Assembly (NCBI GenBank): GCA_902812455.1
Contig: CADDZH010000056.1
Coordinates: 1 to 33,826 of the forward strand
Length of the DNA: 33,826 bases
DNA from: Chloroflexota bacterium
GTDB lineage: Bacteria > Chloroflexota > Ktedonobacteria > Ktedonobacterales > Ktedonobacteraceae
Direction of reading: 5' to 3'
Numbering within the stretch: the stretch's first letter is position 1; each line of letters opens with the position of its first letter. Positions 837 to 14,003 of this stretch are shown here, in pieces. The notes below the pieces were generated by a model. It worked only from the letters and a program-made list of their open reading frames with translations, did not search any database and was not told the DNA's origin. The position numbers and the translations under genes were made by a program.

Positions 837-3800
837 ATGAGCCAGAAGGACACAGCCCCAATACAGCGAGGCTACGAAGTGAATAACACCATATCTGCTT
901 CATCTGAGGCAAGAACAAGCCAGAGTACCGTTGTCCAGTCGATTGGCATGCAGCAGGTATCGGTATACCGCACGACTTTGAATCGCGCACAAGCTGAGTA
1001 TTTGTTAGAGCATGATGAAGAAGCTCTCACAGCAGTGAACAGTGTAATTGATGGTTTGAATCAGATTCCGGATGATTCCTCATTAATATTGAAAAATAAG
1101 GCCGAGGTCGGGAATCTCTATGCCGGGGCGTTTACTTTACTGGGGCGACTTTACGAGCGGCAGGGACAAAGTCAAAAAGCTCAAGACGCCTTCAAGAAAG
1201 CAGTAGAACGATTTGATTGGATCCATGCTCCGATACCATCCTTTACAGGGCAGGATTATGGCGATTATGGCCTGGCACTCTATAACGTAAATCGCAAAAG
1301 TGACTCAATGAAAATGCTCCAGCTAGCGGTTGAGCAAGGGAATAGCAACGCAGAAACCTATTGCACTCTTGCGGTATTGATGCGAGAACAGAATCTTTTA
1401 AGTGATGCCGAAGACCTGTTGAAGAAGGCACTGAATCTCTCAATGAATACTGCAACGAATACCGCGTCAATTTACAGCGCGCTGGCTGAAGTCTATCAAG
1501 CGCAGGATCGCCTGGATGAGGTGGTTAGCGCCTATCAAGAAGCAGTGGGGCTATTGTTAGCGGACAGCCGCTGGAACGAGGCTCTGCATGAGCTTGACCG
1601 GCTTCTTACATTGAAGCCGGAATCAGTCAACGCCCTGGTTTATAAAGGAGAGGTTTTACGCATTCTAGGACGTTTCGATGAAGCCATGGCGGTCCTCGAT
1701 CACGCCCTGTCCATCAATCCCCAGCACGCTATTGCGCTGGCCACGAAAGGCCTGGTGCTGCACGCTCTGGGCCGTAGAGAGGAGGCCATCGAAGCATTGC
1801 AGCAGGCCATCCGGCTTGACCCCGAACAAGAATGGTTCTATGGGGAACTGGGCGATTTATTACTTGATAGGGAGCGCTACGAGGAAGCGCTGCAAGCTCT
1901 TGAGCATGCCTTAACTCTTAATCCCGAAAACACATTTGCCCTGGGAAGGAAAGGGCTGGTGCTGCACGCTCTGGGCCGCAGCGAGGAGGCTGTGGCCATC
2001 ATGCAGCAGGCCATCCAGCTTGACCCGAAACAAGCCTGGTTCTATGGAGTACTGGGCGAAAACCTGCGCCTGCTAGGGCGCAACGAGGAGGCTTTGCCTG
2101 TGTTGGAACAGGCCTTGAGCCTCGATCCCCGCTATGCTTATGCTTTAGGGACAAAAGGCCAGGTATTGCACGCTCTGGGCCGCAGCGAGGAGGCTGTGGC
2201 CATCATGCAGCAGGCCATCCAGCTTGATCCTAAGCAGGCCTGGTTTTACGCTGAGCTAGGCGAAAACTTGCGCCTGCTGGGGCGCTATGAAGAGGCACTT
2301 GCAGCTCTTGAGCAGGCCCTGACCCTTAATCCCCGCTATGCTTTTGCCCTGGGAAGGAAAGGGCTGGCGCTACGCGCCCTGGGCCGCAATGAGGAAGCGC
2401 TTGCCACATTGCGGCAGGCTCTTCAATTTGAGCCGGTATTAGGCTGGATCTATCGAGAACTGGACGATTTACTGCTAACTATGGAGCGCTACGAAGAAGC
2501 GCTGCCGGTTCTGGACAAAACTCTTGAGCTGGAGCCAGATAATGCAGTGCTATGGAGGGTCAAGGGAGAATGCCTGCGCCTGCTGGGACGGTATGATGAG
2601 GCTTTGCCTGTGTTAGAGAAGGCCCTGGCTCTCAATCCTCAGGATGCAGTTGCTTTAGCCATCAAAGGCCAGGTGCTGCACGCCCTGGGGCGCTACGAGG
2701 AAGCGCTATCTTCTTTAGAGCAGGCCTTGCGCCTCGATCCTCACTATGCCTATGCCCTGGGAAGGAAAGGCCAGGTTCTGCAGAACCTGGGACGCAACGA
2801 GGAGGCTGTTGCCGTCATGCAGCAGGCTATCCAGCTTGACCCGAAACAAGCCTGGTTCTATGGGGTACTGGGCGAAAACTTGCGCCTGCTGGGCCGCAAC
2901 GAGGAGGCTTTGCCTGTGTTAGAGCAAGCCTTGCGCCTCGATCCTCATTATGCTTTCGCCCTGGGGACGAAAGGCCAGGTGTTACGTGCCATGGGCCAGA
3001 ATGAAGAGGCTGTTGCCGTCATGCAGCAGGCTCTTCAATTTGAGCCGGTACCAGACTGGATCTATGTGGAACTTGGCGATGTGCTCTTTACTATGGGCCG
3101 CTATGAAGAGGTGCTGCCAATTCTGGACAAAACCCTCGAACTGGAGCCAGATAATGCAGTGCTGTGGAGGAACAAGGGAGAATGCTTGCGCCTCCTTGGG
3201 CGCTACGAAGAGGCGCTTGGAGCTCTTGAACACGCTCTGTCCCTCAATCCCCAGGATGCAGTTGCTTCAGTCATCAAAGGCCAGGTACTGCGCGCCCTGG
3301 GCCGCAACGAGGAAGCGCTTGCCACATTGCAGCAGGCTCTTCAATTTGAACCGGTACCAGGTTGGATCTACGGAGAACTTGCCGATTTACTACTGGCTCT
3401 GGGGCGCTACGAAGAAGCGCTACCGGTTCTGGACAAGACCCTCGAACTGGAGCCGGACAATGCAGACCTCTGGAAGATCAAGGGAGAATGCTTGCGCCTG
3501 CTGGGCCGCCATGAAGAGGCGCTTGCAGCTCTTGAGCAGGCCCTGACCCTTAATCCTCAGGATGCTTTCGCCCTGGGAAGGAAAGGCCAGGTGCTGGACG
3601 CTCTGGGCCGTAACGAGGAAGCTGTTGCCGCTATGCAGCAGGCCATCCAGCTTGACCCCAACCAGGCCTGGTTTTACGCTGAGCTCGGCGAAAACTTGCG
3701 CCTGCTGGGCCGCTATGAAGAGGCGCTGTCAACCCTGGAACAGGCCTTGAGCCTCGATCCCCAATATGCTTATGCTTTAGGGACAAAAGGCCAGGTACTG

Positions 3801-5438
3801 CACGCTCTGGGCCGCAGCGAGGAAGCTGTTGGCGTCATGCAACAGGCCATCCAGCTCGATCCTAAACAAGCCTGGTTTTATGCTGAGCTCGGCGAAAACT
3901 TGCGCCTGCTGGGCCGCAACGAAGAGGCGCTTGCAGCTCTTGAGCAGGCCTTGAGCCTCGATCCCCAGTATGCTTACGCCCTGGGAAGGAAAGGGCTGGT
4001 ACTGCAGGCCCTGGGCCGCAACGAGGAAGCCGTAGCCGTCATGCAGCAGGCTATCCAGCTTGACCCCAACCAGGCCTGGTTTTATGCTGAGCTAGGCGAA
4101 AACTTGCGCTTGCTAGGCCGCAACGAGGAGGCGCTGTCGGCCTTAGAGCAGGCCTTGCACCTCGATCCTCACTATGCTTTCGCTCTGGGGACAAAGGGCC
4201 AGGTGCTACGCGCCCTGAGCCGCAACAAGGAGGCCATCGAAGCATTACAGCAGGCTATCCAGCTTGACCCCAACCAGGCATGGGTCTATATCAGCCTTGG
4301 GTCTGCATATCTATCTACGCAAGATTATGGAAAGGCCCTGGACGCCTTCAGCAAAGCACTAGAATTGAACCCTGACAATGCCATGGCTTACTGGGGCCAG
4401 GGCGAAGCATTACGCATGAAAGGCGATTACCAGAAGGCCATCGAAGCTTACGACCGGTCTTTGAAAAGACAGCCAGATGATATCTCTTCCCTCACAGGGG
4501 AAGCATACGCGTTCCTCTCTCTCGGACGCTTTAATGAAGCAATAGAATACCTGACTCAGGTCCAAAAACAAGCGCCAGATGATCCCTGGGCTTTGGCGAA
4601 TCTGGCCTGGGCCTTTTTACAACGCGGTAACCTCTTGCCGGATCCAGGCAACCATACTCATGGCATCAATGCTCAGTCTAGCGATGACGATTACCTGGAA
4701 GCGCTGCGCCTTTTAAAAAAGGCCCTGGATAAAGCCCCTGGTGATTCCTGGGTATTGTTCGTCAAAGGGATAGTACTCCTTCAAATTGCAGAGTACCAGG
4801 CAGCTTTAAAACTATTGGAACAGGTTATAAAACAGAATCCAGAAGACCCTAAGAGCTTTTACTTGAAAGGGTATGCTTTAACATATCTGGGAACAGGACG
4901 AGAGCAGGAGATACGCGAGGCTTACGAAGCAGCCCTTAAGCTGGACCCAGAAAACCTGGATTATTTCGCAGGCGTGGCAGAGGCGCTGGATCTTCTTGGG
5001 GAACGGGAGAAGGCCAATGACAAGTATCGCCAGGTCATGAAGCGAGCAACTTCGTTGCCCAACATTGGGGTGGATGAAATGAATCTCATCGGCTGGTGCC
5101 GCTATCGTTTAGGCGAGTATGACGAAGCGATCTCTCTCTTCAAAGAGATTCTATCCATCAACAGTGACAAGGTCGCTGTTCAGTTCAACCTTGGGCTGGC
5201 CCTGGCCTGTAGTAAACGAGATGGAATCGCTCGTCGCGAGTACCAACGTGGATTGATGCAGGCAGCGAAACGAGGACTGGGCAGGCGCGGCTACATTAGT
5301 GTCGCCGTCTACGACCTGCGCAATGCCATCGAGATGCATCCCGAACTCGAAATAGACAGGAGCCTGCTGGAACCCCTGGAAAAAGCCTTGCAGGAGGCGA
5401 TGGTAGAAACCTCTGCGACTATTCGTGATTCCCTGTGA
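837..5438 (+). CDS. Giant tetratricopeptide-repeat (TPR) protein, 1533 aa
   Basis: A scaffold-type protein built almost entirely of TPR helical hairpins. Residues 1-245 carry irregular TPRs. About residues 245-1155 are a near-perfect array of 34-residue units with the TPR consensus (LGRYEEALAALEQAL, LDP or LNP, Y/F at the A-helix). Irregular TPRs continue to about residue 1480, and a short helical tail follows. There is no signal peptide or membrane segment, so it should be cytoplasmic. The start is supported by GAGGA 6 bases upstream and by the 3-base gap after the preceding gene. The convergent neighbour is a CHAT protease. TPR and CHAT proteins are known partners (Craspase and related systems), so a sensor or regulator role for the TPR array is plausible but inferred. 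The units are almost identical at DNA level, so copy number may vary between strains or be collapsed in assemblies. Confidence 0.93.
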   Translation: MSQKDTAPIQRGYEVNNTISASSEARTSQSTVVQSIGMQQVSVYRTTLNRAQAEYLLEHDEEALTAVNSVIDGLNQIPDDSSLILKNKAEVGNLYAGAFTLLGRLYERQGQSQKAQDAFKKAVERFDWIHAPIPSFTGQDYGDYGLALYNVNRKSDSMKMLQLAVEQGNSNAETYCTLAVLMREQNLLSDAEDLLKKALNLSMNTATNTASIYSALAEVYQAQDRLDEVVSAYQEAVGLLLADSRWNEALHELDRLLTLKPESVNALVYKGEVLRILGRFDEAMAVLDHALSINPQHAIALATKGLVLHALGRREEAIEALQQAIRLDPEQEWFYGELGDLLLDRERYEEALQALEHALTLNPENTFALGRKGLVLHALGRSEEAVAIMQQAIQLDPKQAWFYGVLGENLRLLGRNEEALPVLEQALSLDPRYAYALGTKGQVLHALGRSEEAVAIMQQAIQLDPKQAWFYAELGENLRLLGRYEEALAALEQALTLNPRYAFALGRKGLALRALGRNEEALATLRQALQFEPVLGWIYRELDDLLLTMERYEEALPVLDKTLELEPDNAVLWRVKGECLRLLGRYDEALPVLEKALALNPQDAVALAIKGQVLHALGRYEEALSSLEQALRLDPHYAYALGRKGQVLQNLGRNEEAVAVMQQAIQLDPKQAWFYGVLGENLRLLGRNEEALPVLEQALRLDPHYAFALGTKGQVLRAMGQNEEAVAVMQQALQFEPVPDWIYVELGDVLFTMGRYEEVLPILDKTLELEPDNAVLWRNKGECLRLLGRYEEALGALEHALSLNPQDAVASVIKGQVLRALGRNEEALATLQQALQFEPVPGWIYGELADLLLALGRYEEALPVLDKTLELEPDNADLWKIKGECLRLLGRHEEALAALEQALTLNPQDAFALGRKGQVLDALGRNEEAVAAMQQAIQLDPNQAWFYAELGENLRLLGRYEEALSTLEQALSLDPQYAYALGTKGQVLHALGRSEEAVGVMQQAIQLDPKQAWFYAELGENLRLLGRNEEALAALEQALSLDPQYAYALGRKGLVLQALGRNEEAVAVMQQAIQLDPNQAWFYAELGENLRLLGRNEEALSALEQALHLDPHYAFALGTKGQVLRALSRNKEAIEALQQAIQLDPNQAWVYISLGSAYLSTQDYGKALDAFSKALELNPDNAMAYWGQGEALRMKGDYQKAIEAYDRSLKRQPDDISSLTGEAYAFLSLGRFNEAIEYLTQVQKQAPDDPWALANLAWAFLQRGNLLPDPGNHTHGINAQSSDDDYLEALRLLKKALDKAPGDSWVLFVKGIVLLQIAEYQAALKLLEQVIKQNPEDPKSFYLKGYALTYLGTGREQEIREAYEAALKLDPENLDYFAGVAEALDLLGEREKANDKYRQVMKRATSLPNIGVDEMNLIGWCRYRLGEYDEAISLFKEILSINSDKVAVQFNLGLALACSKRDGIARREYQRGLMQAAKRGLGRRGYISVAVYDLRNAIEMHPELEIDRSLLEPLEKALQEAMVETSATIRDSL
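1570..4330 (+). repeat. Tandem 102-nt / 204-nt coding repeat within the TPR gene
   Basis: Roughly 27 tandem 102-nt units. A word such as ATCCAGCTTGA recurs near 2013, 2217, 2829, 3645, 4053 and 4257, in steps of 204 nt or multiples of it (3849 has ATCCAGCTCGA). Another unit type, beginning CTTCAATTTGA, occurs at 2421, 3033 and 3339, separated by 612 and 306 nt. Two alternating TPR types form a 204-nt higher-order unit, which implies recent block duplication or gene conversion. Confidence 0.9.
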
Positions 5439-5440
5439 TC

Positions 5441-5455
5441 TTCCCTATAAGGGAA
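5441..5455. terminator. Short hairpin between convergent TPR and CHAT genes
   Basis: TTCCCT and AGGGAA form a 6-bp stem around a 3-base loop in the 48-bp gap between two converging stop codons. No T-tract follows on either strand, so termination here is only a guess. Confidence 0.3.
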
Positions 5456-5486
5456 TAGATTGCCTGGCCTGAAAGCCCTCTCACTG

Positions 5487-7598
5487 CTAAACTACTAGCA
5501 AACCTGGCTCAATCTGTGTATCGGCATCGCAGTAGAGCGCGTAAAGCAGGCCGAGGAGATTGTTATTCTTGTAAAAGAAGTCCTGGCGCAGTTGCAGGAA
5601 TATTTGACCTACCGGTTTATTGCCTTGCAGAAAATACTCAAAGAAGTCTTGCGCCCACCGGGCAGCAAAGATAGCCGGCACCTCGCTTTCAGTACCGATC
5701 ATGCCCCGTGCACCCCTGGCAGTGAAATAGGGCATAAAACCATCGTAAAAACGCGGCGATAGTTCGGCTGACTCGCAGGCATTGATAAATACAAGCGGTT
5801 TACCGGGTAATATCACTCCCGTTGGCGCATACACAGATAAATCCCCTAACAGCAGTTTCTTCCCTCCGCTGAACTTCAAATAAGAAGCATCAGGCCCTTT
5901 TTTCTCATCTGTGGCAGCGTGACAATAAAAGTAAAGAATCTGGTCGGTAGTGCTATTGCTGGCTAGCGCCCGGGTGACCTCATGGAGTTCAGACCTGATC
6001 ACTACGCTTGCGGGGGGATTACGTTGTTTGGTTTTTTCCCAGTATGATACTTGACCGGCAACAAACCCCATGGGCATCTGTACATCAATATCAGTATTGA
6101 CGTTCAGGCTGACATTCAAGCTGGGGCGACTCTTTATCACGTAGTCAGGCAACTGGCCGGTCTGCTGTACCGGTATATGCTCGATGATATGCTTGAGGCC
6201 GAGGAATTTCTCCGGGTTGATATGCTCTTCATCAAAGCGATCCGCCACATAGAGGATGCCCCACGGGATCAGGAATTGCTGTGAGACAATTTGAATCTTG
6301 AGCACATTTTGCTCGGCTATTTCGCGGAGCCGATCTCCCAATTCTCTTGTCCCAGCGTGAGCGGACGGGCCGTAAAATATCTTCTGATACAGCTTGAAGC
6401 CGGCCTTCGCCAGGCATCTCAGCGCCTCTTCGTTGATATCTGGCGGAATAGCAATCCCCGTCTGGTAAACTCGCGTATTATCAGGCGCGGTCATATAGAC
6501 GATGTCATGCAGGACTGTTCGTACCTCGTCTAGCAAGATGACGAGCTGGTCTTTCGTAACCGCCAGGTCGTCATCCTTCGACACGCCTGCCACCATCAGC
6601 AGGTGATAACCTGAACCAGCTTCTGTTACCGTTAATGAAAGATCTCGCGGTTGTATCGCAAATGCCCCATCTACTGGCCTACCCAGGGTCTTGACATCTA
6701 TGATCGTTCGACCTTGAGATTCCTCGACAGCGAAGGTGAGCGTCAGGGCCTGGATAAAGTTATTATTGCGGTAGAAGTTAGCTGTGACCTGGCCTGTTCC
6801 TTTTTTATGAGGCTCAATCTCGAAGATGGGCTTGTTCTTTGACTTGCCGCTCCTGGGCAGGTAGAGCATTTGGGGATTCTTCGTATAGATCGTGAAATCC
6901 CTGCTTGTGAGATGGATAGCCAGCTCTACCTGCTCCTCTCCTGGCTCAAACAGGCGACTCTCGTCAAGCGGACTGGAAGCGCCTGTAGCGCTCTGTATAA
7001 CATCTACCGCAAAAGCCAGCCGGTAGACTTCGTTCAGTTTTAACGGTTCAGTCGAGGGGTGCTCCATAATCTCTGCATTAATCCAGCGCTTTCCCGGTTC
7101 TGCTGCAGGCCGCTCGGGGGATGCCGGTTCCGCCTGCACCGGCCGCTTGCCAATGGCTACCTCGCCGCGTTCTGGTACAGGCTGCTCGGGGGGTGCTGGT
7201 TCCGCTGTTGGATAAACTTCAGGCGCACCGGCAAACGTCTCATCTGTCTCTGTTGCAACGAGATCATCATCCCAGCCAAAAAACCTTTGTTCAGAAACAA
7301 TACTCTCTGACCAATCAGCCGGCCTCCTGGAGTTGATGGCTTTCCCCTCTTCTAAGGATTGCATCACAGCTTGAGCCGCTTCGATGATCTCCTCATCCTT
7401 GTCAGCACCCACCAGGATAAGCTCTTGCCTGAGTGAGTTTTCCCAGGCAGCAGGATTCTTTTCAAACTGGGCCAGAATTGACTCAGCACGCGCATTGCCG
7501 CTGAACTTATGGCGGATCAGCGTTTTCAAAAGCTGGTAGGTTGGACTGCTACTAATACCAGACATAAGAGCGTTGAGGATAAAGGTGATTGAGTCCAT
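5487..7598 (-). CDS. CHAT-domain (caspase-like) protease, 703 aa
   Basis: A predicted cysteine protease of the CHAT family (clan CD, caspase/separase-like). Residues 1-90 form a small helical N-terminal domain of a type common in Chloroflexota, cyanobacterial and actinobacterial effector proteins. A Pro/Glu-rich linker follows (about 110-170), then a beta-rich middle region (about 175-330) and a C-terminal CHAT domain (about 370-703). The presumed catalytic His560 lies in YFYCHA after a hydrophobic strand. Cys608 lies in VFINACES, 48 residues later, as expected for the dyad. There is no signal peptide. Start choice: GAGGTG lies 5 bases before the ATG. The gene converges on a giant TPR gene with 48 bp between stops. 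CHAT proteases are commonly activated by a partner and cleave specific proteins. The substrate here is unknown. Confidence 0.85.
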   Translation of the reverse strand: MDSITFILNALMSGISSSPTYQLLKTLIRHKFSGNARAESILAQFEKNPAAWENSLRQELILVGADKDEEIIEAAQAVMQSLEEGKAINSRRPADWSESIVSEQRFFGWDDDLVATETDETFAGAPEVYPTAEPAPPEQPVPERGEVAIGKRPVQAEPASPERPAAEPGKRWINAEIMEHPSTEPLKLNEVYRLAFAVDVIQSATGASSPLDESRLFEPGEEQVELAIHLTSRDFTIYTKNPQMLYLPRSGKSKNKPIFEIEPHKKGTGQVTANFYRNNNFIQALTLTFAVEESQGRTIIDVKTLGRPVDGAFAIQPRDLSLTVTEAGSGYHLLMVAGVSKDDDLAVTKDQLVILLDEVRTVLHDIVYMTAPDNTRVYQTGIAIPPDINEEALRCLAKAGFKLYQKIFYGPSAHAGTRELGDRLREIAEQNVLKIQIVSQQFLIPWGILYVADRFDEEHINPEKFLGLKHIIEHIPVQQTGQLPDYVIKSRPSLNVSLNVNTDIDVQMPMGFVAGQVSYWEKTKQRNPPASVVIRSELHEVTRALASNSTTDQILYFYCHAATDEKKGPDASYLKFSGGKKLLLGDLSVYAPTGVILPGKPLVFINACESAELSPRFYDGFMPYFTARGARGMIGTESEVPAIFAARWAQDFFEYFLQGNKPVGQIFLQLRQDFFYKNNNLLGLLYALYCDADTQIEPGLLVV

Positions 7599-7691
7599 TA
7601 TTCACCTCGTGGTAATGCAGTGTTAAAAAAGCTCCGAATGCCAGCCGCACAAGCGTGTATAAGACCATACAACTCATCAAGGAACAGGTAC

Positions 7692-7720
7692 AATATATAT
7701 GAAAATCAAAAGAAAAACAA
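7692..7720 (-). promoter_or_regulatory. Candidate promoter for the CHAT gene
   Basis: On the minus strand TTGTTT and TATATT are separated by 17 bases, giving a leader of about 87 nt. The -35 is weak (3 of 6) and the -10 is 5 of 6. Confidence 0.4.
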
Positions 7721-7759
7721 TAGTCTCTCTCAATCAGGTGATCTTGATGAATTCTCCCC

Positions 7760-7788
7760 TTGACAGGGGCCTATTGTGTGCCTATAAT
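7760..7788 (+). promoter_or_regulatory. Consensus sigma-70-type promoter of the DAHP synthase leader
   Basis: Perfect TTGACA (7760-7765) and perfect TATAAT (7783-7788) are separated by 17 bases. Transcription should begin near 7795, about 285 nt before the aroF start. This leaves room for the leader ORF and terminator described next. A small hairpin ACCGAC/GTCGGT lies at 7804-7821, just inside the transcript. Confidence 0.88.
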
Positions 7789-7854
7789 CATACATAGATA
7801 CTAACCGACTGGAACGTCGGTAAATGGCAAGAAAGATAAACGGAACAACCAGCA

Positions 7855-7944
7855 ATGCTCAGCGACCAGCAACAAGAACAAGAACAGAACAGCAGAACCA
7901 TCCGCCACAGCGGTTATTGCTATTATTATAGCCCTCCAGCTTGA
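7855..7944 (+). CDS. Putative 29-aa tyrosine-rich leader peptide of aroF
   Basis: The ORF begins MLSDQQQEQEQNS and ends GYCYYYSPPA. Four of five consecutive codons at 7915-7929 are TAT (Tyr), with one TGC. The ORF lies between a consensus promoter and an intrinsic terminator ahead of DAHP synthase, an enzyme of tyrosine synthesis. The Shine-Dalgarno is poor (GGA about 10 bases upstream). An overlapping frame (ATG 7824, stop 7929-7931) reads the same bases as five Leu codons. The Tyr frame is preferred because it fits the pathway. Translation is inferred, not shown. Confidence 0.6.
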   Translation: MLSDQQQEQEQNSRTIRHSGYCYYYSPPA

Positions 7945-7989
7945 TGGTGGGCCCTTTGGGCTGAGCAAAATATCACCAGCAGGCTGGAG
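7934..7989 (+). promoter_or_regulatory. Leader RNA structure between leader ORF and terminator
   Basis: CTCCAGC (7934-7940) can pair with GCTGGAG (7983-7989). Inside this, TGGTG (7945-7949) faces CACCA (7974-7978), and GCCC-TTT-GGGC forms a local hairpin at 7951-7961. The 5' arm overlaps the end of the leader ORF, so a ribosome held at the Tyr codons would mask it. CCCTTT (7952-7957) could instead pair with AAA...GGG of the terminator arm as an antiterminator. The competing folds are inferred by eye. Confidence 0.5.
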
Positions 7990-8020
7990 AAAGCAGGGGA
8001 CAACAAACCTCTGCTTTTTT
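7990..8020 (+). terminator. Intrinsic terminator (attenuator) upstream of aroF
   Basis: AAAGCAGGGG (7990-7999) pairs with CCTCTGCTTT (8008-8017), a 10-bp stem with one G-U pair and an 8-base loop. A run of six T (8015-8020) follows. It lies inside the transcription unit, 43 bases before the aroF Shine-Dalgarno, so read-through would decide aroF expression. Confidence 0.85.
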
Positions 8021-8078
8021 GTTTGTATTGAGCACATTTGCTTGTACTGAGCACGGCAGTGTGGAGAGGACTTGTCAT

Positions 8079-9167
8079 ATGATTATCAGCATTCGCAGGC
8101 AGGCCAGCAACGAGGAGCGGATACAATTGATGGCAGTTGTATCTGGTATTACCGGCTCCCAGCGACCCATAACGACCACAATACTAGATGCGCGCGAGGT
8201 CATTGTGCTGGATGATAACCAGCTCGATGAACAGGCGTATATGCTTCTCAGGCGGCAGGAGGCAGTAGAGCGCCTGGTAGAGGTGGAGACGCCATACCAG
8301 CTCGTGAGCAGGGCTTTCAAGCCGGAAGGCAGCAAGATTGTGATAGGTGATCAGCTTGGCGGCGAGCCTGTCACGGTTGGCGGCCAGGGCGGAATCGATG
8401 CCATTCCTGATCCTGTCATCATGGCCGGGCCATGCTCAGTCGAGAGCCGGGAGCAAATTCTGGCCAGCGCACGGGCAGTGAAGGCAGCGGGGGGCCAGGT
8501 CTTGCGCGGCGGAGTGTTCAAGCCGCGTACTTCACCGTACCAGTTTCAGGGGTTGGGCATCGAGGGATTGCAATTGCTGGCGGAGGCTCGCAGTCTCACG
8601 GGATTGCCGGTGATTACCGAGGTTATGGAGCCTGACATGGTAGAAACGGTTGCTCAGTACGCCGATATTCTACAGGTCGGGAGCCGCAATATGCAAAACT
8701 TTCCACTTTTGCGCGCCGTTGGTCACAACAGTCCCAAACGTCCCATTCTGCTCAAGCGTGGTATGGCAGCCACGATTGAGGAGTGGCTGCTGGCGGCTGA
8801 ATATATTGTAGCGGCCGGCAATTCTAATGTGATCCTCTGCGAGCGCGGCATTCGCAGCTTCGATAACCAGACACGCAATGTGCTTGATCTGACCTGTGTT
8901 CCTCTCTTACACGAATTAACCCACCTGCCCGTAATTGTTGATCCCAGCCATGCCACCGGACGACGCGAGCTGGTGCCAATAATGTCTCGCGCTGCCATCG
9001 CTGCCGGAGCCGATGGCCTGCTGGTGGAAGTCCACCCCGATCCTGATAAAGCGCTGACCGATGGCCACCAGTCGATTGCTGTGGAGCAGCTTTGTTCAAT
9101 CGTGCGCGAGAAAGATGTTTTGATACAGGTGATGCTTGAGTGCAAGCAAACGAAGCAGGTTGTCTGA
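8079..9167 (+). CDS. aroF: 3-deoxy-7-phosphoheptulonate (DAHP) synthase, type I-beta
   Basis: This enzyme condenses phosphoenolpyruvate and erythrose 4-phosphate, the first committed step of the shikimate pathway. The 362-residue protein has an N-terminal ferredoxin/ACT-like regulatory domain (about 1-75) and a TIM-barrel catalytic domain. It aligns well with the Thermotoga maritima type, which is feedback-inhibited through this domain by Tyr and Phe. Key motifs are MAGPCSVE (metal ligand Cys119), KPRTSPY near 148-154, LLKRG, ILCERGIR, VDPSHATGRR and EVHPDPDKA. The ATG at 8079 is preferred over the in-frame TTG at 8019: GGAGAGGA lies 8 bases upstream, the protein then begins MIISIRR like its relatives, and the TTG falls in the terminator T-tract. 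The leader suggests transcription attenuation by tyrosine, a second layer beyond enzyme feedback. Confidence 0.96.
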   Translation: MIISIRRQASNEERIQLMAVVSGITGSQRPITTTILDAREVIVLDDNQLDEQAYMLLRRQEAVERLVEVETPYQLVSRAFKPEGSKIVIGDQLGGEPVTVGGQGGIDAIPDPVIMAGPCSVESREQILASARAVKAAGGQVLRGGVFKPRTSPYQFQGLGIEGLQLLAEARSLTGLPVITEVMEPDMVETVAQYADILQVGSRNMQNFPLLRAVGHNSPKRPILLKRGMAATIEEWLLAAEYIVAAGNSNVILCERGIRSFDNQTRNVLDLTCVPLLHELTHLPVIVDPSHATGRRELVPIMSRAAIAAGADGLLVEVHPDPDKALTDGHQSIAVEQLCSIVREKDVLIQVMLECKQTKQVV

Positions 9168-9236
9168 GCATGGACAAGGATTCGAGAAAGAAATGCGATT
9201 CGCGCGGTTGAACCTATGTTATTTCTTATAGTGTTA

Positions 9237-9245
9237 TGGTATACT
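9237..9245 (+). promoter_or_regulatory. Extended -10 promoter upstream of the ANTAR regulator
   Basis: TGGTATACT matches the TGnTATAAT extended -10 with one mismatch. No good -35 is seen. It would give a leader of about 225 nt containing the structured repeat at 9324-9424. Confidence 0.45.
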
Positions 9246-9323
9246 CTTGATATCTAAGCACCCAGGCTTGCGAGCGTTGGGAGAGCCGCTATACACGTCC
9301 CTGGTGCAAAGTCAAGAAAGCAG

Positions 9324-9424
9324 TTAGGGAATGGGGGGTGCAGGGGGCGAAGCCCCTTGCCGGGGTTTGGGGAACGCGGTCTGGGAGACCGTGTGCTGGG
9401 GACCCAACCTTTCTTATTCCCTAA
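9324..9424 (+). repeat. 101-bp structured element with 9-bp terminal inverted repeats
   Basis: The ends TTAGGGAAT (9324-9332) and ATTCCCTAA (9416-9424) are perfect inverted repeats. Inside are a GAA-loop hairpin GCAGGGGGC/GCCCCTTGC (9340-9360), a stem GGTTTGGG/CCCAACC with one bulge, and within that CGGTCT-GGG-AGACCG. The whole can fold as a multi-arm structure. A second copy of the GAA-loop hairpin and its GCCGGGGTnTGGG flank occurs at 33642-33671, so this is a dispersed repeat. It lies in the probable leader of the ANTAR gene. Confidence 0.65.
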
Positions 9425-9477
9425 AAAGTTAGGTGGTTATGCACCGGGGTTGGTTAAGGATAAAGAGGGATGCACAC

Positions 9478-10050
9478 ATGCCAACACGTGTAATTATTGC
9501 TGATGATGAAACGATCCAGCGTATGGACTTACGAGAGGTGCTGACCAGGCAAGGTTATCTCGTGGTAGGGGAAGCTGGCGATGGCGCAAGCGCTGTAAAT
9601 CTGGCGCGAGAACTCCGCCCCGACCTGGTCGTCATGGATATCAGAATGCCAGACATGGATGGCATCACTGCTGCTGAAACGCTGACTCAAGAAAAGATTG
9701 CCCCGGTATTACTGCTCACTGCCTTCGGTGATCAGCCGCTGGTTGAGCGAGCTAAAGAGGCCGGCGTCGTGAATTATGTCGTGAAGCCACTGCGAGAGAG
9801 CGAAGTTGCTCCCGCTATAGAGATCGCACTTGCCCGCTATGCCGAGTTTCGTGCACTGGAAGAGAGAACGCGTACGCTGGCCGAGCAATTGGAGACGCGC
9901 AAGGTAGTGGAGCGGGCCAAGGGGCTTCTGATGGAGAAGCAGGGACTCACGGAGCAAGAGGCATTTCGCAAGATTCAGAAGGCCAGCATGAATAATCGCA
10001 AGTCCATGCGCGAGGTGGCAGAGGCCATTCTTTTGACCAACGAAATGTGA
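9478..10050 (+). CDS. Response regulator with REC and ANTAR domains (PdtaR-like)
   Basis: A two-component regulator of 190 residues. The N-terminal receiver domain (1-120) has acidic residues D9/D10, phospho-acceptor Asp54 in VVMDIRMPDMDG, the conserved Thr near LLLTAF, and Lys in YVVKPL. A short coiled coil follows, then an ANTAR domain (about 130-188: ERAKGLLMEKQGLTEQEAF and the later KSMREVAEAI). ANTAR proteins bind paired RNA hairpins and act as antiterminators. No histidine kinase gene is in the window. The ATG at 9478 is chosen because AGAGGGA lies 7 bases upstream and the receiver domain begins there. In-frame starts at 9433 and 9439 would add a non-homologous tail. An intrinsic terminator follows. 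Confidence 0.93.
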   Translation: MPTRVIIADDETIQRMDLREVLTRQGYLVVGEAGDGASAVNLARELRPDLVVMDIRMPDMDGITAAETLTQEKIAPVLLLTAFGDQPLVERAKEAGVVNYVVKPLRESEVAPAIEIALARYAEFRALEERTRTLAEQLETRKVVERAKGLLMEKQGLTEQEAFRKIQKASMNNRKSMREVAEAILLTNEM

Positions 10051-10080
10051 GGCGTGGCATCGTTGCTACGCCTTTCTTTG
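10050..10080 (+). terminator. Intrinsic terminator after the ANTAR gene
   Basis: AGGCGTGGCA (10050-10059) pairs with TGCTACGCCT (10064-10073), a 10-bp stem with one G-U pair around a TCGT loop, followed by TTCTTTG. The next gene starts only 20 bases later, so partial read-through or a promoter inside the regulator gene must serve it. Confidence 0.62.
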
Positions 10081-10100
10081 TCTAGTAAAGCTAAGAAGAG

Positions 10101-11126
10101 ATGGTACCAACAACCCATACAGAGAACGTTGTTGTCATCGTTGGTATTCGCTTTCGCCCGGCAGGGCGTATCTATTACTTCGACCCACAAGGGCAGACTT
10201 TTACCACAGGCCAGTATGTGATTGTTGAAACGGTGCGTGGAGTAGAGGCCGGGCGCGTAGTTATTGCTTCAAAGAAAATAGCTGAAAGCGAGCTGAGCGA
10301 CCCGCTCAAGCCGGTACTGCGGCTGGCGACCGAAGACGAGCTACGCATGATGCTCTCCTTCAAGAGCAAGGAGAAAGAGGCGCTCGTACAGTGTGCACGG
10401 CTGGTCGCCCAGCACAAGCTACCGATGAAGCTGGTCGAGGCCGAATATACCTTTGATGGGAGCCGGTTGACATTTTATTTTACAGCCGAGGAGCGGGTTG
10501 ACTTTCGCGCGCTTGTGCGGGACCTGGCAGCGACCTTCCATACCCGCATCGAACTGCGCCAGATTGGAGCGAGAGACCAGGCCAAATTGCAGGGTGGACT
10601 GGGGCCGTGTGGAAAAACGCTGTGCTGTAGTTCCTGGATTACAGAATTTGGGGTGATCTCAATCAAGATGGCGAAGGAGCAGGGGCTTCCCCTCAATCCT
10701 TCGAAGATTTCCGGTGTCTGCGGTCGCTTATTGTGCTGTCTTTCGTATGAAAACGAGAACTACATCGAGGCGAAGCGGTTAATGCCGCAAATCGGCGCCA
10801 TTCTGGAGACGCCAAGCGGCCCCGGCAAGGTCGTTTCGGTCAATGTCCCGAAGAACTCGGTTGAGGTCATGCTTGAAAGCGGCGCTACTATTCAGGTGCC
10901 GGTAGGGCTTCTGGGAGGGTCAGGACAGGCGCCGCGAGGGTGCGGCAGTTGTAGCGCGAGGAACGGTGGCTGTGGCAGTTGTAGCGCGAGAAGTGGGGGA
11001 GGATGTGGAAAATGTGGCAATGGAGGCTGTGGCAAGGGCAGTTGTAGCTGCGGTAAAGGTGGCTGCGGATCATGTGCTGTCAGGCGCAAGCAAGGCCAAC
11101 TGGATTATGACAATGATTCGGTGTAA
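10101..11126 (+). CDS. ricT: PSP1/RicT (YaaT)-family protein with Cys-rich tail
   Basis: A 341-residue member of the PSP1 C-terminal domain family. In Bacillus, RicT (YaaT) joins RicA and RicF in an Fe-S-containing complex that works with RNase Y in mRNA processing and affects development. The core (about 10-270) is intact, with two conserved Cys clusters: GPCGKTLCC (C170, C175, C176) and GVCGRLLCC (C207, C212, C213). Residues 274-330 are an added Gly/Cys-rich tail with 11 cysteines in CGSC and CGKC units, which is not part of the usual family. The tail may bind metal or an Fe-S cluster, by inference only. The ATG directly follows AAGAAGAG, so start spacing is poor, but no better in-frame start exists. 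No ricA or ricF is nearby. The upstream ANTAR gene also points to RNA-level control. Confidence 0.9.
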   Translation: MVPTTHTENVVVIVGIRFRPAGRIYYFDPQGQTFTTGQYVIVETVRGVEAGRVVIASKKIAESELSDPLKPVLRLATEDELRMMLSFKSKEKEALVQCARLVAQHKLPMKLVEAEYTFDGSRLTFYFTAEERVDFRALVRDLAATFHTRIELRQIGARDQAKLQGGLGPCGKTLCCSSWITEFGVISIKMAKEQGLPLNPSKISGVCGRLLCCLSYENENYIEAKRLMPQIGAILETPSGPGKVVSVNVPKNSVEVMLESGATIQVPVGLLGGSGQAPRGCGSCSARNGGCGSCSARSGGGCGKCGNGGCGKGSCSCGKGGCGSCAVRRKQGQLDYDNDSV

Positions 11127-11180
11127 TCACGGGCAGGTATCGCCCTGAGAGATCTGTGCTTTCGAGAGCGAGAGCCAGGA

Positions 11181-11207
11181 GGGTAGGGGCACGGCTTGCC
11201 CCTGCCC
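11181..11207 (+). repeat. Hairpin repeat in the ricT-SPFH gap
   Basis: GGGTAGGGGCA pairs with TGCCCCTGCCC (11-bp stem, one G-U pair) around CGGCT. There is no T-tract. It resembles other GTAGGGGC-type intergenic hairpins in this window and could protect or end the upstream transcript. Confidence 0.5.
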
Positions 11208-11252
11208 TGATTATCTACACAAATACCGCTGACGAGAGGGAGGGCAAGCATT

Positions 11253-12869
11253 ATGTCATCAGAATGGAATGAACCAGGCGCAGGCGCGACATGGCAGAAT
11301 GCTGGCAGCCTGGATTGGGACGATTCGTATGAAGAGATACCATCTCTCTCCTTTGAAGAGAACGAAATCGAGGAGGATGACATTGAGCAGGGAGACATCC
11401 CGGCAACGCACAGTCCTCCACCTTCGGCAGAGGAAGAGCCTGCCCTGGATGAGCTGGTGGAGCCCTTTGCGACAAAATTTGAAGCATTCCAGGAATTTGG
11501 GCGGCACTTACTTCCGGTACTTATCCCATTGCTTTTAGGTGGATTAACCTTCTTATTTGTTCTTCCCTTTGCCTTGCGCAATCAGGCCTATGTGCATGCT
11601 GACTATCTCTGGATAATAGGGCTGATCATCGTAGCGCTGGCCATATTGCAGGGTACGATCCTTGCGTATACGGACATCAATGATGTGTTCTGGTTGCTCG
11701 CCATAGCCGTTGGCTTTTGCCTCTTTGCGCTCGTTGGCTTCTTTGCCATCTTTGGGCCTCTGGTCGCTGCAATCGTCTTTGTCCTGCTGGCGATTGTTGG
11801 CATTGTTGCTATTCGCAGCTATATCCATCCGGTGCCAGAAGGGACCGTTGATGTTGTTTACGCGTTCGGTAAATACAGCCGCACGCTCTATCCCGGCGCT
11901 AACTTCTTACTGCCATGGGAGCGGGTTGAGAGCCATTTGCCGGCACGGGAAATCATCTGGACATCTCCCGAACAGGTTGTGCAAGTCTCGCACAATCAGG
12001 ATGTGCATCTCAAAGCTATGCTGTCATATCAACTGGTGCCAGAAGATGCTCACCTTGTTGTCGTAGAGCTCCCGGCTGGCAAATGGGAAGAGCATATACA
12101 CGACCTGTTCTGCACGCTATTACAGGCTGCCGCAGGCAAGCTATCGGCAGACGATTTTCTCTTATGGCCACAGCCTGCCCGTTCGAACCAGCGCTCTGAG
12201 GCAAACTTCGGCCACCTCGATGAGGAATCGCCTCATCGCGAGTTCCTCAACAACCTCTTGTTCCAGCAAATGAGGGATAAAGTTGCCCTCTGGGGGGTGC
12301 AAATCAACTGGGTACAAATTCGTGATGTGATACTAACGCCTCACGCATCCCCTACAGTGCAGCGTGAGCCGGTGGCGCCAGAAGTGGCCGGGAATGCAGG
12401 GAATACAACTGGAACAGCCACTGCATCGATGCCATCTTTCCAGAGCGGCTTTTCTTCCATGAATGCAGGTATAGACAATGATATCACAGAGAAGATGGAC
12501 TTTGTGCCGCCGGCGGCTTCACCAGCGGGAATGCCTCCCCAGGGAAATGAACCTCCTGTGCCCACGAAGCTCCCTTCGGAAGAAGTGCTTATCCAGGCAT
12601 ATAAACAGGTGCAAGAGGGAAAAATCAGGTCTCCAGAGGCAATCAGGAGTATTGCTGCAAAGTTTCAAGCCGTCGCGGCCGATTCCGAAGCCAGCCAGAA
12701 AGTGAGCTTTGATGCAGCCCTTGCCGCCCGCGCCTTATATGAGAGGGCCGCGCTGTATGAGCGACATGGCCATGGCCGGGGCAGCAGCGATGAGACGCCC
12801 CCCATATCAATGCCCGGTGAACGCACACCTCGCCCTCCCAAAGAAGAGAACCTGACATCGGGTGGCTAG
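11253..12869 (+). CDS. SPFH/Band-7 (stomatin-like) membrane protein, 538 aa
   Basis: A membrane protein with an acidic, probably cytoplasmic N-terminus (1-70) and about four hydrophobic segments (near 85-107, 116-138, 143-165 and 166-188). An SPFH domain follows from about residue 192 (VPEGTVDVVYAFGKYSRTLYPG, then LLPWERVESHLPAREI). It keeps the typical sequence V-x-S-x-D/N-x-x-x-x-x-x-x-x-Y-x-L (QVSHNQDVHLKAMLSYQLV). A low-complexity Pro-rich linker (about 370-445) and a helical C-terminal segment (about 445-500) come last. SPFH proteins form membrane rings or microdomains. The partner and role here are unknown. GAGGGAGGG upstream supports the start. No NfeD or FtsH partner gene is adjacent. 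The multi-span hydrophobic N-terminus is larger than the single anchor of classic stomatins. Confidence 0.82.
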   Translation: MSSEWNEPGAGATWQNAGSLDWDDSYEEIPSLSFEENEIEEDDIEQGDIPATHSPPPSAEEEPALDELVEPFATKFEAFQEFGRHLLPVLIPLLLGGLTFLFVLPFALRNQAYVHADYLWIIGLIIVALAILQGTILAYTDINDVFWLLAIAVGFCLFALVGFFAIFGPLVAAIVFVLLAIVGIVAIRSYIHPVPEGTVDVVYAFGKYSRTLYPGANFLLPWERVESHLPAREIIWTSPEQVVQVSHNQDVHLKAMLSYQLVPEDAHLVVVELPAGKWEEHIHDLFCTLLQAAAGKLSADDFLLWPQPARSNQRSEANFGHLDEESPHREFLNNLLFQQMRDKVALWGVQINWVQIRDVILTPHASPTVQREPVAPEVAGNAGNTTGTATASMPSFQSGFSSMNAGIDNDITEKMDFVPPAASPAGMPPQGNEPPVPTKLPSEEVLIQAYKQVQEGKIRSPEAIRSIAAKFQAVAADSEASQKVSFDAALAARALYERAALYERHGHGRGSSDETPPISMPGERTPRPPKEENLTSGG

Positions 12870-12910
12870 TCTCTGGGGGCGATAATGCGGATTAACAAAA
12901 TGATCCCTCT

Positions 12911-13008
12911 ATGTCATCCTAAGCGCAGCGAAGGATCTCTGTCGATCGGCAGCGGATGCTTCCCCTTCGCTGCGCTCAGGGCTTCGGCTCACGCGCTCAG
13001 CATGACAT
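12911..13008. repeat. Dispersed palindromic repeat, copy A
   Basis: It starts ATGTCATCCTAAGCGCAGCG and ends CGCTCAGCATGACAT, so the ends are imperfect inverted repeats. It is close to the reverse complement of copy C at 19633-19732 (shared GATCGGCA core and GGGCTTCGGCTCACGCGCTC arm). It lies between converging SPFH and HIT genes. Confidence 0.85.
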
Positions 13009-13011
13009 GCC

Positions 13012-13503
13012 CTACTTGACGGCCTCTATGGCTTTTGTGAGTTCCTGGTAGACGCTATCCAGGTGCTGGGGCATGACCTTCACATCGGCAAGCACAGGCA
13101 TAAAATTGGTGTCGCCGTTCCAGCGAGGTACGACATGTAAATGCACGTGCTCGGCAAAGCCCGCGCCTGCCACTTTCCCCTCGTTGATGCCCATGTTGAA
13201 CCCATCAGGTTTCATAGCGAAGCGCAACGCACGCAGAGCGAGCTGCGCCTGTGCCATTAATTCAGCGAGCGTAGCAGCATCCAGGTCTTCAATTGAACTG
13301 ACATGTTTGTAGGGCGCGATCATGAGATGCCCGTTGTTGTACGGGTAGAGATTCAGCATCATGAAGCAGTATTCGCCACGATAAAGGATATACTCTTCTG
13401 CATCACGATGTGCGGCTGGCTTGGTACAAAAAATATCCTCTTTTGTCCGCTCTGCTTGGGGCGCGATGTAATCCATGCGCCAGGGTGCCCATAACTGTTT
13501 CAT
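13012..13503 (-). CDS. HIT-family hydrolase/transferase (Ap4A-type)
   Basis: A 163-residue histidine-triad protein. The active-site motif H119-V-H121-L-H123-V-V-P is intact, with the supporting NxGxxAGAGFAEH segment just before it and the NLYPYNNGHLMIAPYKH strand-turn region near 51-67. The N-terminus WAPWRMDYI is typical of the diadenosine-polyphosphate phosphorylase/hydrolase-like branch found in Gram-positives and Chloroflexota. The exact substrate (Ap4A, AMP-lysine or another nucleotide conjugate) cannot be read from sequence. No Shine-Dalgarno precedes the ATG, but a TGTTATATT extended -10 ends 7 bases before it, so the mRNA is probably leaderless. The gene is monocistronic, with an HxlR gene 39 bp upstream on the same strand. 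Confidence 0.92.
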   Translation of the reverse strand: MKQLWAPWRMDYIAPQAERTKEDIFCTKPAAHRDAEEYILYRGEYCFMMLNLYPYNNGHLMIAPYKHVSSIEDLDAATLAELMAQAQLALRALRFAMKPDGFNMGINEGKVAGAGFAEHVHLHVVPRWNGDTNFMPVLADVKVMPQHLDSVYQELTKAIEAVK

Positions 13504-13510
13504 AGTAGGT

Positions 13511-13519
13511 AATATAACA
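13511..13519 (-). promoter_or_regulatory. Extended -10 promoter for a leaderless HIT mRNA
   Basis: On the minus strand TGTTATATT ends 7 bases before the HIT ATG, which would place the start of transcription at or next to the start codon. No Shine-Dalgarno is visible. Confidence 0.45.
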
Positions 13520-13542
13520 CAATCAAGGCCAAATGTGTGTTT

Positions 13543-13944
13543 TTAAGCTTCTTCGGCTGGTTCAGCGGGAGGGACTGCATCGGGCAATGCAATCCACTCA
13601 TCTGCCCATTTGTGGATAGTTTCCACGACGGGCGCCAGCGCACGACCCTTGGCGGTGAGCTGGTATTCGACGCGCACGGGGATATGAGGATACACGATGC
13701 GCTCGACGATGCCCTCAGCCTCCAGCTCGCGCAAGCGATCGCTGAGCACGCGGTCAGAAAGCCCTTCCACCGTTGTCGTTAGTTCACAAAACCGTTGGGG
13801 GCCGCGCAAAAGAGTATCCAGGAGCAGACCCGTCCAGCGCTTTCCGAGCAATTGTGTGGCGCGCTCAAAGCGTGGACAGATGCCCTCCTCAGATGAGGGA
13901 TGGGCCGCGTTTATGGATGCTGGTGTGGTTGGCTTCGTTGCCAT
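13543..13944 (-). CDS. HxlR-family winged-helix transcription regulator
   Basis: A DNA-binding regulator of about 133 residues. It has the HxlR pattern: an early Cys in GICPRFERATQLLGKRWTG, then LLRGPQRFCEL, the recognition region GLSDRVLSDRLREL, and the wing EGIVERIVYPHIPVRVEYQLT. The conserved Cys may sense redox or electrophiles, as in related HxlR and HypR proteins. The start at 13944 is preferred because AAAGGA precedes it by 10 bases. The ATG at 13968 in the same frame (141 aa) has no Shine-Dalgarno and overlaps a TGTTATG operator-like half-site. A 14-bp palindrome at the predicted transcription start suggests autorepression. The gene lies between HIT and MBL-fold genes. Which neighbour it controls is not clear. 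Confidence 0.92.
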   Translation of the reverse strand: MATKPTTPASINAAHPSSEEGICPRFERATQLLGKRWTGLLLDTLLRGPQRFCELTTTVEGLSDRVLSDRLRELEAEGIVERIVYPHIPVRVEYQLTAKGRALAPVVETIHKWADEWIALPDAVPPAEPAEEA

Positions 13945-14003
13945 CTTGTGCCTGTCCTTTCCGGTCATATGTTATGAAGGAACCAGACCGGGATTACCAT
14001 TAA

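Follow-up and report, generated by a model that had tools for sequence, protein, structure and literature searches.

A putative tyrosine-sensing leader-peptide attenuator upstream of DAHP synthase in Ktedonobacteria and its relatives in Chloroflexota

In the trp and phe attenuators of Escherichia coli, the antiterminator has a strand in common with the terminator, and in T-box leaders the RNA binds tRNA directly, without a leader peptide. Attenuation in E. coli covers the trp, phe and pheST operons, the last being an aminoacyl-tRNA synthetase operon (PMC11802643). As described in the available parts of the reports, the leader peptide aroR with its Phe-Tyr-Phe codons precedes aroF of Corynebacterium glutamicum (PMC11802643, PMC4046766), and aroR-aroF responds to Phe, not Tyr (PMC11802643). 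The uORFC-13-1 motif is a predicted upstream ORF with Phe codon(s) before aroF, directly ahead of an intrinsic terminator; according to the accessible portion of its description, the 24 representatives came only from Acholeplasma and unassigned environmental sequences, carried at least one Phe codon and preceded solely aroF (PMC8632094). In the excerpts available to us, the Phe and Tyr operons of Actinobacteria are given no conserved upstream RNA structures (PMC1262725), and none of the eight leader peptides of Streptomyces lividans belongs to DAHP synthase (PMC8079986). A 2010 survey stated that leader-peptide attenuation was known from Proteobacteria and Actinobacteria, ermC apart, and added its own his case from Firmicutes; the word part 'chloroflex' is absent from the accessible text of this survey (PMC2965389). 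At the level of titles and abstracts, with subscription journals thinly covered, no report of such a leader in Chloroflexota was found for DAHP synthase or tyrosyl-tRNA synthetase (TyrRS).

The window is the whole stretch of DNA that was analysed, 33,826 nucleotides from a Chloroflexota bacterium of the family Ktedonobacteraceae. The locus upstream of its DAHP synthase gene comprises the following features.

7760-7788, + strand: promoter of the sigma-70 type, TTGACA (7760-7765), 17-nt spacer and TATAAT (7783-7788), 12 of 12 matches
7855-7944, + strand: leader ORF MLSDQQQEQEQNSRTIRHSGYCYYYSPPA-stop, 29 amino acids, 29 codons and UGA
7856-7863, + strand: arm A, UGCUCAGC, at the leader start, predicted to pair with C' as helix P1 (window duplex z -2.4)
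7915-7929, + strand: putative control codons UAU UGC UAU UAU UAU (Tyr-Cys-Tyr-Tyr-Tyr), read from the sequence, with the aromatic run of the family at the same place
7931-7952, + strand: predicted hairpin H1, 7931-7934 with 7949-7952 and 7936-7938 with 7945-7947, with the stop codon in the loop (window fold, covariation)
7934-7943, + strand: arm B of stem P2, CUCCAGCUUG, over the codons for PPA-stop, predicted to pair with 7980-7989 (covariation)
7960-7967, + strand: C', GCUGAGCA, predicted pairing partner of arm A (P1 duplex calculation)
7980-7989, + strand: arm D of stem P2, CAGGCUGGAG, its end 3 nt from the terminator core (covariation)
7990-8020, + strand: intrinsic terminator GCAGGGG..CCUCUGC (plus AAA:UUU) with U6, MFE -14.8
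8062-8068, + strand: ribosome binding site GGAGAGG for DAHP synthase, read from the sequence
8079-9167, + strand: DAHP synthase of type I-beta, the putatively regulated gene, ATG at 8079 (Pfam PF00793; NCBIfam PRK08673 and TIGR01361 above cut-off)

The first-pass annotation had described a perfect promoter, a 29-codon ORF with Tyr codons near its end, a stem across the stop region and a 10-bp terminator with six T ahead of the ribosome site, and each was recovered on direct reading. The leader ends in Gly-Tyr-Cys-Tyr-Tyr-Tyr-Ser-Pro-Pro-Ala-stop (YCYYYSPPA-stop), the stem (7934-7943 with 7980-7989) overlaps the UGA, and the terminator arms AAAGCAGGGG/CCUCUGCUUU (7990-7999 with 8008-8017) form 10 pairs including one G-U, followed by six T at 8015-8020. 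The promoter was the only 12-of-12 site among seven promoter-like sites in the region 6000-14000, and the fold of 7795-8085 was 4.3 standard deviations better than that of 200 shuffles. The DAHP synthase is of the Ktedonobacteria type. We read this locus as a ribosome-mediated transcription attenuator that would sense charged tRNA-Tyr and control DAHP synthase, with a probability of roughly 0.86 judged from sequence comparison.

Other reading frames and genes of the window were also noted. An overlapping ORF (7824-7931, + strand) reads the Tyr run in a different frame and ends in LLLLL-stop. DAHP synthase is followed by a response regulator carrying an RNA-binding antiterminator (ANTAR) domain (9433-10050, + strand) and then by RicT, an order kept in 25 of 27 Ktedonobacteria loci (not in L025; L005 ends too soon); identity was 82-91% for the ANTAR regulator and 62-77% for DAHP synthase. 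On the opposite strand, 837-7598 holds a 1533-residue TPR protein adjoining a CHAT-domain protein, possibly a protease-sensor pair.

A search with the DAHP synthase of the window gave 18 loci, 16 of them from Ktedonobacteria by title; Thermogemmatispora, which we take to belong to this class, was counted in it. Upstream sequence was available for 15 relatives, and in 10 of them (L001-L008, L014, L015) the leader ended in an aromatic run and SPPA-stop; Dictyobacter, for instance, has FYYWFSPPA-stop. The Thermogemmatispora leaders L009-L013, which make up the remaining five, carried the run FYYYFYF-SPPA but had lost the stop, and by eye the frame continued to CWWAASG; the extended frame includes two Trp codons, and the stem is lengthened to 14 pairs. 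L064 is likewise without a stop in arm B. In deeper families the run was altered (YYYWWRCPPA, AWWWRCPPA, YWWYRCPPA; WWWWRSSLASARLA by eye) and the architecture was unchanged. Across the class, a DAHP synthase match was obtained in 47 of 47 genomes, the match in G009 being weak and interrupted. RNA model R1 matched 45 of these 47 genomes, each at 2.4e-4 or below, and partly by construction because the 32 leaders behind R1 come from the same class.

The promoter and the terminator were conserved together with the leader. Promoters upstream of the leader scored 11-12 of 12 in 34 of 40 Ktedonobacteria leaders, and the base-shuffled control did not exceed 10 (132 sequences). The exact terminator pattern of the window's relatives, GCAGAGG..CCUCUGCUUUUU, gave 44 matches in 38 of the 47 class genomes; as 43 of the 44 lay at these leaders, the pattern is not a common terminator of Ktedonobacteria. 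With lineages pooled, the -10 element ended 6-10 nt before the leader ATG in 27 of 74 cases with a promoter of at least 10 of 12, for example L064, and thus some leaders may come from leaderless transcripts.

In the case of the whole phylum, R1 matched 135 of 400 Chloroflexota genomes at E of at most 0.01, Ktedonobacteria included, and 265 of the 400 were without a match at the same filters. An aromatic amino acid gene lay downstream at 92 of 100 further places that were fetched (blastp to reference proteins); these were the best among the matches listed, with second copies including those in Ktedonobacteria, rather than a random draw. The downstream genes were DAHP synthase (two subfamilies), chorismate mutase/prephenate dehydrogenase, TyrRS and phenylalanyl-tRNA synthetase (PheRS). 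Seven of the 92 assignments were the reference proteins themselves, and profiles bear these assignments out. A profile check of nine proteins from eight representative loci confirmed the classes as TyrRS, PheRS alpha, DAHP synthase of the AroFGH subfamily, AroH chorismate mutase, an AroH-prephenate dehydrogenase fusion and a CmoA-like-AroH fusion. The last was seen at L192, where a CmoA-like carboxy-SAM synthase is fused to AroH chorismate mutase under a Phe/Tyr leader; the protein of L193 is 85.6% identical.

Six matches without an aromatic gene downstream (L162, L181, L184, L187, L188, L189) were set aside as chance matches, while L195 and L196 lie at or near contig ends, with too little sequence to name the downstream gene. 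Among the 10 loci where the terminator pattern matched outside the R1 matches, L198, L199 and L201 lie upstream of DAHP synthase (blastp), L200 carries an almost identical leader where its contig ends, and L202-L206 showed no such leader by eye. At L197 the same terminator sequence stands before a glutamate synthase-like gene (by eye), with no clear control codons. Later counts were made without L062, whose stretch has no terminator, L063, which reappears as L196, L164, where the codon run lies beyond the match, and L051 and L057, whose terminators were not parsed. No relatives were found in viral contigs.

The codons were compared with the downstream genes. The nine codons before the stem held a mean of 4.11 aromatic codons in 127 distinct leaders, whereas random windows drawn from these loci held 0.88, the best of three frames being taken for leaders and random windows alike; near-identical leaders were collapsed (127 of 134) for this count only. 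The frame was taken as that with most aromatic codons, and in L127 and L193 it differs from the leader ORF read previously. Of the 109 DAHP synthase leaders, 108 contained Phe or Trp codons, compared with 1 among the 12 leaders that precede TyrRS or chorismate mutase/TyrA (Fisher p 1e-13); in that one, L134, the Phe lies outside the Tyr run. Tyr-codon leaders stand upstream of TyrRS (L122, L129, L134, L164, L180, L128, L131, L155) and of AroH/TyrA (L119, L123, L136, L178); L191, also before TyrRS, has a single Tyr codon. The two PheRS leaders, both with HHVHF-SPPA, have one Phe codon each and lack Tyr and Trp. Moreover, the third bases of the Tyr and Phe codons vary while the amino acid is kept. 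In leaders with Phe codons, the last Phe before the stem was UUU in 99 of 109, compared with 65 of 121 earlier Phe codons.

As in attenuators of the trpL/pheL type, the codon run thus names the amino acid that is made or charged by the downstream gene, and this agreement speaks more strongly than any other evidence for a translated ORF and for charged tRNA as the signal. The window was the sole Tyr-only leader among the 109 DAHP synthase leaders. Sensing of Tyr alone, as first annotated, therefore suits the window but does not extend to DAHP synthase leaders as a rule. The leaders closest to that of the window (L019, L020, L045) have FYYWF, and its lineage has therefore probably turned to Tyr-only control recently.

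Parsing gave a terminator in 135 of 137 leaders (mean MFE -16.7, n=135) and a stem in 134 of those; an intrinsic terminator thus stands between leader and gene, as in the trpL/pheL type. The 134 leaders share one order: codon run, arm B, spacer, arm D, a gap of -5 to 7 nt, and the terminator (mostly GCAGAGG..CCUCUGC). Here the P2 stem of each leader was the best-scoring complementary stretch, taken with no shuffled control, and it is short in L178 (5) and L191 (6). The last aromatic codon is 6-9 nt from arm B in 120 of 134 leaders. An alignment of relatives had been proposed as a check on the Tyr codons, the stop position and covarying stems; it bore out the aromatic run, the covarying stem and the terminator in Ktedonobacteria and beyond, and so supports the attenuator reading, but the stop position is looser, falling inside arm B or at its end in 77 of 134 leaders.

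Covariation in P2 and H1 was evaluated with a 32-leader alignment of the Ktedonobacteria class, alignment A1 being without the type-2 leaders L050, L051, L055, L057 and L066. As the aligned leaders share ancestry, the double-change counts that follow represent lineages, not events. For P2 with the terminator helix, 96.3% of cells were paired and 41 cells were double changes, compared with 14.2 in shuffles and at most 4 when slid; in P2 itself double changes occurred in 6 of 11 pairs (4.2 in shuffles, 18 of 500 reaching 6). For H1, 96.0% of cells were paired, with double changes in 2 of 7 pairs and in 12 cells (4.5 shuffled, at most 2 when slid). In the columns 32-39-95-102 of the 32 sequences, A-U-A-U occurred 17 times, G-C-G-C 7 times, G-C-A-C 4 times and others 4 times. 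This pattern would be expected if 32:39 (H1) exchanges for 32:102 and 39:95 (P2), column 32 varying in step with its partners in both stems and column 39 with 32 and 95; the split largely follows families, and few independent events therefore lie behind it. Thus, base-pair changes in the alignment support two mutually exclusive stems, P2 and H1, that would use the same bases of B, and comparatively supported stems of this kind close to the control codons are again a feature of the trpL/pheL type. H1 is also good in L099 and L100, but with a mean z of just -0.76 over all 134 leaders it was rejected as a family-wide hairpin.

In the case of P1, the pairing of each leader's start codon region with its own spacer gave -16.9 kcal/mol, compared with -13.5 for shuffled spacers and -14.1 for the spacers of other leaders (132 leaders). 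The mean z was -2.6 in Ktedonobacteria (n=40) and -0.6 in others (n=92), and compensatory changes were seen by eye in L005/L024. A local hairpin, P3, was rejected, with 75.8% pairing and equal covariation when slid by one column. Extension of P2 into the terminator arm was no more stable than in synonymous controls (-3.61 against -3.58 kcal/mol, n=127; better in 44%), a comparison restricted to leaders without a negative gap, which excludes L128, L131 and L155 among others. P2 runs into the terminator core in 6 of 134 leaders (gap -5 in three, -2 in one, -1 in two; 3 in the window), and those with gap -5 are L128, L131 and L155, all of TyrRS. An antiterminator formed by extending B:D into the terminator was accordingly rejected as a general rule, being no better than synonymous recodings, and sharing of bases between antiterminator and terminator, known from the trpL/pheL type, is not a general feature here.

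The proposed mechanism would operate as follows. The RNA would start from the promoter at 7760, with translation from 7855. When Tyr-tRNA is ample, the ribosome would reach the UGA within arm B and cover B, and P2 (B:D) would be prevented; the leader start would pair with C' (P1), the terminator at 7990-8020 would fold and transcription would end near 8020. When Tyr-tRNA is scarce, the ribosome would wait at the first Tyr codons, arm B would be free, and P2, taken to be stabler than P1 and H1, would form. Lying directly against the terminator foot, P2 would hinder the terminator, and polymerase would continue into DAHP synthase. Since P2 and the terminator are mostly neighbours and the expected invasion was not seen, hindrance at the terminator foot is proposed, and P2 flush with this foot may hinder closure in the polymerase exit channel. 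Translation of the leader and this direction of control are what we infer from the comparison.

Folding with a ribosome was calculated before the second arm of the terminator is made. The mean probability of P2 (n=131) depended on the ribosome position, being 0.94 for the first aromatic codon, 0.78 for mid-run, 0.20 for the last aromatic codon and 0.33 for the stop; in the window the values were 0.99, 0.68, 0.00 and 0.00, respectively, and P1 reached 0.62 and 0.73 for the third and fourth of these positions. These values agree with P2 forming under starvation and P1 in the fed state. When the ribosome stands on the last aromatic codon, 5-6 nt of arm B would be covered in 99 of 134 leaders, and on the first one almost none. 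At the first aromatic codon the ribosome covers the leader start in 69 of 132 leaders; the window is not among these, as its ribosome on the Tyr codons is downstream of arm A, and stalling would thus not itself break P1. It had further been suggested that stalling would mask 7934-7940 and could favour read-through. A ribosome at the last Tyr codon would cover the window to about 7939 and in folding blocks P2, but stalls at earlier Tyr codons leave P2 free.

Without a ribosome, P2 had a probability of 0.87 in the same folding. This would mean read-through without translation, which counts against P2 as antiterminator, unless the RNA is kept for a sufficient time in P1 and H1, both of which have their strands finished sooner. 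Moreover, equilibrium folding of 23 leaders with ribosome masks showed no conserved partner capturing the first arm of the terminator, and the terminator formed in nearly every ribosome state, with L055 (ribosome mid-run) as the clear exception. We consider P2 as the antiterminating form to be slightly favoured on balance.

The same leader-peptide sensor could also work with P2 in the opposite role, helping the terminator by end-to-end stacking, with read-through when a ribosome near the run end blocks P2. The end-to-end arrangement in the 134 leaders suits stacking as well as hindrance, the block of P2 by a stall at the last aromatic codon (0.20) is what this role needs, and P2 formed without a ribosome would let untranslated RNA terminate. 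However, P2 of the window is likewise blocked when the ribosome stands at the stop codon, so ample amino acid would favour expression too; the terminator alone is already strong, as its mean MFE indicates; and in L128, L131 and L155, where P2 reaches 5 nt into the terminator core, it cannot help. We regard this role of P2 as rather unlikely. Much less probable is a ligand-binding riboswitch, a T-box or a protein-binding leader with an incidental ORF. The strong conserved structure and terminator would agree with it, and the ANTAR-type regulator, of an RNA-binding antiterminator family, just downstream in 25 of 27 Ktedonobacteria loci would agree with protein binding. Nevertheless, the window yielded no Rfam family at threshold, only four weak matches far below gathering scores came from a permissive search of 7600-8100, and the T-box covariance model had no match in the window. 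Codon identity that tracks the downstream gene and third bases that vary are both best explained by translation. Finally, sensing of Leu-tRNA by the overlapping ORF, whose five terminal Leu codons are present in the window, has next to no probability, as the downstream gene makes no leucine and the conserved run of the relatives is aromatic, with no Leu run in their other frame by eye.

Judged by its sequence record, the leader is real and conserved, and it is most likely a Tyr-sensing attenuator. One RNA architecture in a deep phylum would serve DAHP synthase, chorismate mutase/TyrA, TyrRS and PheRS, with the codons rewritten for each gene. How Chloroflexota control the shikimate pathway and the charging of tRNAs with aromatic amino acids thereby becomes directly testable, and the leaders offer a natural series in which the sensor codons are changed and the switch is kept. 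The end-to-end stem and terminator also pose a mechanical question, that of stopping a terminator without sharing its bases. As a tentative and more doubtful extension, Chloroflexota may possess a phylum-wide aromatic regulon of leader-peptide switches, in which, as a new kind of antitermination, a stem flush at the terminator foot blocks the terminator while sharing none of its bases, the leader start codon region pairs downstream (at least in Ktedonobacteria) and resets the switch, giving one reading per transcript, and codons were re-assorted between genes (Phe/Tyr/Trp, Tyr only, Phe only or Trp only).

Compared with the described systems, the window resembles aroR-aroF of C. glutamicum in having an aromatic-codon leader peptide before DAHP synthase, and stalling of the aroR ribosome raises transcription; aroR differs in its phylum and, according to its accessible description, in responding to Phe rather than Tyr. 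The Acholeplasma motif, as far as its available description goes, is alike in its upstream ORF, adjoining intrinsic terminator and further base-paired element, whereas the Chloroflexota leaders have Phe/Tyr/Trp runs and also precede chorismate mutase/TyrA, TyrRS and PheRS genes. The T-box leaders of tyrosine genes in Firmicutes serve the same kinds of genes and likewise sense tRNA charging. With trp, phe and pheST of E. coli, the Chloroflexota leaders have in common that their control codons lie immediately ahead of mutually exclusive stems and of an intrinsic terminator, and they differ in that P2 abuts the terminator, with the core overlap confined to the six leaders given above. The first-pass view that no Tyr-run leader is known for a Chloroflexota DAHP synthase thus agrees with our literature search, but it has to be set beside the known aroR and the predicted Acholeplasma leader. 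Attenuation by a leader peptide is a known kind of control, and the Chloroflexota family and its arrangement are new as far as the literature was searched.
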